From Lepisosteus oculatus (taxonomy: Eukaryota; Chordata; Actinopteri; Semionotiformes; Lepisosteidae): a stretch of DNA of 64,000 nt. Position numbers and translations under genes: made by a program. Shown here piece by piece: positions 1,627 through 6,678 of this stretch (position 1 is the stretch's first letter; every line of letters begins with the position of its first letter). The stretch covers positions 14,748,001-14,812,000 of the forward strand of contig NC_090697.1 in assembly GCF_040954835.1 (NCBI RefSeq). The letters are read 5' to 3'. Under the pieces are notes generated by a model. That model was given only the letters and a program-made list of their open reading frames with translations. It had not been told where the DNA came from and made no database searches.

Positions 1627-4600
1627 TTTATTTAGTCGTCATCACTTTACAGCTGGAACTCTGGGAACTCAAATACAACATCTTTGCCTGTGAGCTTCTT
1701 GTAGACACCAGAGAAGGTCTCAACCTAAAATGGTAAAAAAAAAACTTGTCACTCATTTTAGTAAGTTAAAAGCCTTTCAAATGATTAAACTTTAACATCA
1801 CATTAAACATTTAAATATGTGCAGTAAAGTTAATCTGTCCCTCAACAAAATGCATATATAGTTTTAAGGGTTTCAGTATATATTGTCATTAATGAAAGCT
1901 TAAAAACTTAACTTAAGAATACCAGAGTTAAAATGTGCACTGCATGGTTTTTCTCCCCAGTAACTGCCCAAGGACTCTGGGAAGATGTAGGAATATACAG
2001 GACGCTGTCCTCACCAGCCAGAAGGCCGGGGACAAGCTTGCTCTCCAACGTCGTGGAACGGGACTGTACGTCATGGCACTGCGAGGTGCTACGCTCCCAT
2101 ACGCCACACGAACAGAGCCATGTGAGAGCAACCTCACAGGATGTCCACGTTGTAGAGGGTGGGGGGGAGGTGGGTCAAACATAATTAAGAGTTCTTGAGA
2201 CTAACTTACTTTGTGTTCAACATTGTTTTGCTGGGCCTTGTCAAGGTGAACCTTAATGAGTCGGCTGCTGTCCAGTTTCACACGGATCCTCTTGCCAACA
2301 ATTTCACTTGGAAAGACCAGGTCTTCAAGGATGGCATCATGCACTGCAGTCAGTGTACGGCTGAAACAGATCAATGGAACTGTTGTATATCACATTGTAT
2401 ATGACTTTAACGATTGTATACAATGAGAATATATAAGCTCGATTAATTCACCTCAGTCATGTCTTATGGTGAGTACCAGCATAATACAACAGCATCCTTT
2501 GAGTTTCTAAATCTTATCAGAACTTTAAAAACATTTGGTGGCAGCACAAAGTATAAAGTTTAAAAACTGACAGGGAGATAATGAAATGGTAAAAATCTCA
2601 GGTGTCATGTTTTTCACCATACACTAAAATTTGTTTAAAGCTGATTACTGCAAACCATATAACGTACAATTAGTCTACATTATTGAATAACATTTGAAAT
2701 TCTTGAGAACTTTGATTATAAATGTCTATAGTTTCCACCTTTAGAAAAGATTCTGAAGTATACCAACCTATCAACACTAACTTCAAATTTCTAGAAGACA
2801 TGAAGCTATGACTAAACAAGTGCAATCAGATGGATTTTTACAGTATTTTATTACTTTAAAAATGCAAGTTGAAAATTATTCTAATGCTCCTATAGTCTTA
2901 TAATTAGCTACAAATTCAAGTGTTACTGTACAAATCTGAAAATGGCTAGATTTAGCACTCCGATTTTAACATCAACTGTCAAATTTTAATATTTTATACA
3001 AAACGTTGTGCACTGCATGGTTTTCCTCCCCAGTAATTGCCCAAGGACTCTGGGAAGGCATAGGAATATACAGTACGCTGTCCTCACCAGCCAGAAGGCC
3101 GGGGACAAGCTTGCTCTCCAACGTCGTGGAATGGGACTGTACATCATGGCACTGTGAAGTGCTACGCTCCCATACGCCACACGAACAGAGCCATGTGAGA
3201 GCAACCTCACAGGATGTCCACGTTGGGTGTGAAAGTATGCCTAACATGAATTAAAGGTTCTCAGTTTTTACTAATACACCATTGAGGTAAATACAAATAT
3301 TCAGTGATCGACAAGTATTTTTGCCTATTTAGAATTATTTCCCCACATAAAAGTAACAAGTTAATAATCAGGTTCAAGAGTATGTACTTTATTAAATATT
3401 TACGCTTTTGAACATACCTCCTGGGACGCTTCTGCTTGTTCTTTGTGCGGCTTTTTCTTGTTGGTTTGGGCAGAATTCTCCTCTGTTAAGAAAACATTCA
3501 ACATGCTGTAAGACAGCCTGCTGGGATTTTACTGTAGTAATATAGCAGTAAAACCACCAACAGAGAAAAGACAACCAATCAAAACCTACCAGTATACATA
3601 TAACCATATTAGCATACCCTTTTCGTCTGATATGAATAAAATCTAAGATCTTTCGGATCAGAGCAGTACATTCAAATTCACAATCTCAGGCTATAATTAA
3701 GGCAAAATAATGTGCACTGCATGGTTTTCCTCCCCAGTAACTGCCCAAGGACTCTGGGAAGGCATAGGAATATACAGGACGCTGTCCTCACCAGCCAGAA
3801 GGCCGGGGACAAACTTGCTCTCCAACGTCGTGGAACGGGACTGTACGTCACGGCACTGTGAAGTGCTACGCTCCCACACGCCACACGAACAGAGCCATAT
3901 GAGAGCAACCTCACAGGATGTCCACGTTGGGGTTTAGCAATTCTGGATCAATAGACTGAAGATTCAAATTAAATCAGCATAAAAGCATAAGCACCAAAGC
4001 TGAAAGACATGGCTTGTATACAACATCATTGTCTATGTTAATCACAGCAGTACCACCTTCAAATCTGATCTTATCAGATCTCAGAAGCTAAACAAGACTT
4101 GGCCTAGTCAGTATTGAGATGGGAGACCTACAAGGAAAACTGAAATGCTGTTTAAGTTTAACTAGCAGGAAGTATGCTTCCCTTGTGATCAGAATGTCCA
4201 AATTAACACCCCAGCATAGTGACTGGGAATACTGCTATAGGAGGCATCGTCCTTCAGATGAAACATTTAACCAAGTCCGGGACTATACGGTTCTTAAAGA
4301 TCCCATGGCACTATGTCAGAAGAGTAGACATATTAAACCAGTGCCATGGCTAAATGCCAATGTGGCCTACCTCATGCCCCTCCTTAATTCAAGTAGTGAC
4401 AACTGCTCACTTCACTACCTGATCTGCTGTGTAGTGGGGCTCTTGCACATAATGACTGCCGCACGTCACCCAGGTGGGTGCTGCACTTCACAGGTGGATG
4501 AAGTGGGTCCCCTCTTATATGTAAAGCGCTCTGGGATCCTTTGGGATGAAAAGCGCTACGTAAATGCAATTAGTAAAACCATGTAGCTTTCTAAATTTAC

Positions 4601-6678: not shown

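Follow-up and report, generated by a model that had tools for sequence, protein, structure and literature searches.

Four U17 (SNORA73) snoRNA copies in introns 3 to 6 of the ribosomal protein gene RPS7 of Lepisosteus oculatus

The RPS7 gene of the gar Lepisosteus oculatus carries one U17 (SNORA73) sequence in each of its introns 3, 4, 5 and 6, and these are most probably (at a rough probability of 0.95) four snoRNA genes of the H/ACA class, whose products would be released from the host transcript by splicing and trimming for use in 18S processing. This reading is favored because the copies give full-length matches to the Rfam model, because their motifs and boxes are intact, because their bodies are alike while their flanks are not, and because the gene that harbors them is itself intact. 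The DNA analysed is a stretch of 64,000 nucleotides (termed here ‘the window’) from assembly GCF_040954835.1, contig NC_090697.1, positions 14,748,001 to 14,812,000 of the forward strand.

A scan of the whole window with cmscan against Rfam 15, at the gathering threshold, returned exactly four full-length matches, each of them to SNORA73 (RF00045) and located on the minus strand. Each spans positions 1 to 219 of the 219-position model, with E-values between 2.1e-53 and 2.9e-51, and no other RNA family exceeded its gathering threshold in the 64,000 nucleotides. A first-pass annotation of the same DNA had claimed four U17 copies between positions 1931 and 5464, and had proposed running the Rfam SNORA73 model over them; the identity and number of the copies proved to be right (200.7 to 208.4 bits, all well over the gathering score of 74), and the limits of the span coincide exactly with the ends of the cmscan matches. 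The copies share the strand of the gene and are located 56 to 1030 nt from the 5' splice site and 137 to 643 nt from the 3' splice site of their introns (Table 1).

The structure of the host gene, which occupies the minus strand, was read from the sequence: six coding exons form a splice product of 194 amino acids, introns 2 to 6 begin with GT donors, all of introns 1 to 6 end in AG acceptors, and a GT donor also follows the proposed first exon. The 194-residue frame matches the Pfam family PF01251 (Ribosomal_S7e) with 289.8 bits and aligns from end to end with the chains of 40S protein S7 in the PDB, the best of which differs from it by two substitutions. RPS7 is intact, and the exon borders, the reading frame, the Pfam match and the orientation of the SNORA73 matches all bear out the earlier assignment of the copies to introns 3 to 6 of this gene in the sense orientation. 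Neither nhmmer (using a profile of the four copies) nor cmscan found U17 in introns 1 and 2, and a search of the same two introns for U17 remains gave local scores of 17 and 15, less than the 27 of the highest-scoring tile among 140 shuffled ones. Intron 4 also contains a SINE-like element (4040-4590, plus strand, opposite to that of the gene; its far end was judged by eye). A 5S-like Rfam match (34.7 bits, below the gathering score of 38) fits the head of this element and was rejected.

Table 1. Positions in the window of the RPS7 exons and introns, the four U17 copies and the decayed fragment
Feature	Position	Strand	Basis or remark
RPS7 exon 1, non-coding, proposed	6651..6676	-	read from sequence; 5'TOP-like CTCTTCC at start; start inferred
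RPS7 intron 1, proposed	5978-6650	-	673 nt; without U17
RPS7 exon 2, start codon	5900..5977	-	splice sites and translation
RPS7 intron 2		-	145 nt; without U17
RPS7 exon 3	5683..5754	-	exon borders read from sequence
RPS7 intron 3	5105-5682	-	one U17
U17/SNORA73 copy, intron 3	5242..5464	-	223 nt; cmscan 208.4 bits
RPS7 exon 4	4961..5104	-	exon borders read from sequence
RPS7 intron 4	3483-4960	-	one U17
U17/SNORA73 copy, intron 4	3708..3930	-	cmscan 200.7 bits
RPS7 exon 5	3418..3482	-	exon borders read from sequence
RPS7 intron 5	2361-3417	-	one U17
U17/SNORA73 copy, intron 5	3004..3226	-	cmscan 205.7 bits
RPS7 exon 6	2210..2360	-	exon borders read from sequence
RPS7 intron 6	1725-2209	-	one U17
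U17/SNORA73 copy, intron 6	1931..2153	-	cmscan 201.7 bits
RPS7 exon 7, coding part up to stop	1647..1724	-	AATAAA at 1632
Decayed U17 3'-end fragment	1476..1516	-	nhmmer with four-copy profile, 14.0 bits, E 7.7e-4

All four copies possess the H box region AGAGCAA at offset 109, before the 3' domain (the H box being defined as ANANNA), and in all four the ACA box, followed by three bases, closes the SNORA73 match. The pocket of the 3' hairpin contains the motifs m1 (AUAUUCCUA) and m2 (AAACCAU), as defined in the portion of PMC7601244 that includes its Table 1, and both are identical in every copy; the ACA box and conserved blocks are thus as intact as had been claimed. The window contains four exact occurrences of the m1-spacer-m2 pattern, and 100 shuffles contain none. 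A match to the pattern on a viral contig (L001) was dismissed as chance, since no Rfam family reached the gathering threshold there and its ORFs appeared phage-like by eye.

Compared in pairs, the copies differ at 8 to 14 sites per 223 nt (93.7-96.4% identity), while in all 12 comparisons of their 60-nt flanks the similarity did not exceed that of the highest among 200 shuffles. The identity between copies is what might be expected if they were recent insertions, or an artefact of assembly, rather than a long-kept arrangement; however, the flanks share nothing above the shuffled background, inspection by eye of the 20 nt beyond each 3' end of the four copies shows no A-tail (which also speaks against retroposition as their source), each copy has acquired private substitutions, and the same host gene is on record for Xenopus and Fugu (in the passages of PMC7601244 consulted). 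The unalike flanks and missing A-tails therefore do not point to segmental or retroposed copying of recent date, and a recent or artefactual origin is very improbable.

Twenty columns vary among the four copies (the last three bases included), 12 of them by a change confined to a single copy. The remainder do not tell a single story: in a set of four bases (columns 167-169 and 202) the copy of intron 3 agrees with that of intron 6, and that of intron 4 with that of intron 5, whereas at two of the three terminal bases intron 3 sides with intron 5 and intron 4 with intron 6. No one tree of the copies can thus fit all columns. This conflict, together with the high identity beside unalike flanks, is consistent with gene conversion (concerted evolution), and not purifying selection alone, as the main cause of the likeness between the copies, a tentative explanation that is on balance doubtful: the 12 private columns run against it, and the conflict depends on the last three bases of the copies, where the flank or chance may account for the pattern. 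The conserved bodies beside unalike flanks are a better sign of constraint or homogenisation than any covariation between the paralogues.

Beyond the AATAAA of the gene (at 1632), and outside any RPS7 intron, the window contains a further trace of U17. A 27-nt stretch (1474-1500) was found in a repeat search to resemble the U17 3' end. When the window, with the four copies removed, was shuffled 100 times by dinucleotides, no shuffle attained the nhmmer score of the fragment (best shuffle 10.6). The local alignment of the fragment scores highest at U17 positions 190-220, with 40 as against 27 or less in 140 shuffled tiles. The fragment did not appear in cmscan output for bases 1-8000 even at E-values of up to 10, so the sequence profile is the basis of its identification. 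Its m2 reads AAGCCAT, its ACA box reads TCA and the remainder of U17 is missing; it is therefore most likely a dead remnant. Such a remnant could point to an active turnover of U17 copies at the RPS7 locus, in which U17 would be copied again and again, a fifth, now 5'-truncated copy landed outside the introns and died, and only intronic landings were kept, although this scenario is an unlikely one.

Given that the four copies differ at scattered sites, some of them within hairpins, the first-pass annotation had suggested that the paralogues may be under selection for structure while drifting in sequence. Two structures were considered. In that of Rfam, 44 to 47 of 50 pairs form across the copies, and 4 of the 20 variable columns fall in pairs, none of which is compensated. 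In that of RNAalifold, 99.3% of cells pair (the structure being derived from the same four sequences), and 8 of the 20 variable columns fall in pairs: six keep the pairing, two of these forming one double change and four being one-sided changes, and two break a pair. The double-changed pair is at the base of the upper 3' stem, where U-A is found in introns 3 and 6 and C-G in introns 4 and 5. The covariation score on the RNAalifold structure exceeds those of all six slid versions of that structure, as is to be expected of a structure derived from these sequences; when partners were shuffled among the copies, the score was equalled in 88 of 500 shuffles and the number of double-changed pairs in 399 of 500. 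Covariation was consequently rejected as evidence of selection, there being one double-changed pair and no excess over shuffles. By either structure some variable sites do fall in pairs, but selection on structure among the paralogues is only weakly suggested by their sequences: with four sequences so close to one another, covariation speaks neither for it nor against it.

When folded alone, the copies of intron 3 (z-score -2.41) and intron 5 (-3.11) take nearly the consensus shape, the minimum-energy fold of the intron 4 copy (-1.51) leaves the consensus in the 5' domain, and that of the intron 6 copy (-1.04) leaves it there and in the lower 3' stem as well. In addition, the intron 6 copy lacks the outermost pair of the 5' domain. 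As predictions, these single-sequence folds speak against equal folding of the four copies, and one or two of them might be less active. It could even be supposed, given the weaker z-scores and non-consensus folds of the copies in introns 4 and 6, and given that the decayed fragment nearby represents a copy that has been lost, that only introns 3 and 5 provide functional U17 and that the other two copies are decaying. This is improbable, however: on the Rfam model the scores of the four copies are no more than 8 bits apart, all four retain the H box, ACA box, m1 and m2, and their differences are few. Furthermore, H/ACA RNAs fold with proteins, which shape these RNAs, and naked minimum-energy folds are for that reason a poor guide.

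Of eight proteins of the window compared with Pfam, RPS7 among them, four match a family. Two stretches on the plus strand (24321-24599 and 26099-26371) match ARD and are ADI1-like, one with 100.1 bits and the other with a sub-threshold 24.9 (cut-off 27), and a stretch on the minus strand (36625-37017) matches TPR with 27.2 bits (cut-off 27) and is, judging by its position, presumably TRAPPC12-like. The remaining four proteins (12596-12985, 32227-32625, 45452-45766 and 39095-39409) matched no Pfam family; one of them may be an exon of RNASEH1. The ARD and TPR neighbours agree with the order RPS7-RNASEH1-ADI1-TRAPPC12 of human chromosome 2, and so with a vertebrate RPS7 neighbourhood. A long palindrome was also observed at 810-907 (arms of 45 nt, 8 nt between them, 84% complementary), with a partial copy of 53 nt and 77% identity at 7750-7802, on the opposite side of RPS7, and the two are treated as a putative repeat family. 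A MIR529-like Rfam match (37.9 bits, below the gathering score of 75) fits this palindrome and was rejected.

For the four genes in introns 3 to 6, the steps that would lead to U17 can be laid out largely by analogy. The RPS7 pre-mRNA would be transcribed and spliced, and the excised introns would be trimmed at both ends to a U17 particle of about 220 nt (the trimming as described in the part of PMC7601244 consulted), which H/ACA proteins would presumably protect. Through m1 and m2, U17 would base-pair with the 18S part of the pre-rRNA and assist its processing (same portion of PMC7601244); U17 is required for making the small ribosomal subunit and has no role in directing pseudouridylation. 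With several copies on each transcript, a strongly expressed 5'TOP gene should yield more U17, a dosage advantage that is presumed here, as is the expression of U17 in this animal. Release of U17 from RPS7 introns for 18S processing is the established reading for Xenopus and Fugu, and would extend to the gar by analogy.

For comparison with these systems, we take the Xenopus gene S8 to be RPS7 and the human gene U17HG to be SNHG3. The parallel with Xenopus and Fugu drawn in the first-pass annotation has been published (PMC7601244, in its text, a row of a table and titles in the reference list). According to those portions, all six introns of S8 in Xenopus laevis contain U17XS8 (Cecconi et al. 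1994), and the S7 gene of Fugu rubripes carries a U17 of 218 nt (Cecconi et al. 1996). The gar locus resembles that of Xenopus laevis in the snoRNA family, in the host and in the presence of one copy per intron in several introns, with sense U17 in the spliceosomal introns of an intact RPS7, as in a multi-copy, RPS7-hosted state; it differs in that U17 occupies four introns and not six, introns 1 and 2 being without it. The first-pass annotation took the gar to have kept this state, which may be so, with independent gain as the alternative. Fugu rubripes shares with the gar both the snoRNA and the host gene. Human U17a and U17b, in contrast, are located in U17HG, upstream of RCC1 (PMC7601244, same portions): the snoRNA is the same and again intronic, with a single host carrying one copy in each of two introns, but that host yields no protein product, whereas the gar host is a ribosomal protein gene, and the human RNA measures 207 nt as against 223 nt. 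Motifs of the 5'TOP type occur in U17HG and in further non-coding genes that host snoRNAs (PMC7277114, in the part consulted).

Other accounts touch on U17 more lightly. In the portions consulted, U17 serves as a marker in turtles (PMC1403801), and a study of chicken snoRNAs names U17HG, with no mention of RPS7 or RCC1 (PMC2653536). The corresponding portions of papers on snoRNA mobility (PMC3511168), snoRNA family size (PMC8178906) and the introns of sponge ribosomal protein genes (PMC3412847) do not mention SNORA73, nor do those of the first and third mention RPS7. Among the matches listed (titles and the starts of abstracts, with most subscription papers outside that scope), none was a paper on the U17/RPS7 locus in a fish other than Fugu.

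The occurrence of several H/ACA copies in one host is a minority pattern that is already recorded for U17, and the presence of U17 in gar RPS7 is a real but ordinary find, its arrangement having been described in the frog and the pufferfish. The copies and the fragment leave the understanding of U17 unchanged. The decayed fifth fragment is a small new detail, and its position outside RPS7 offers a small handle on how U17 copies arise and get lost. The gar locus adds another vertebrate-type RPS7 gene with multiple U17 copies in its introns, and is useful for dating the switch of host to a non-coding gene in mammals.
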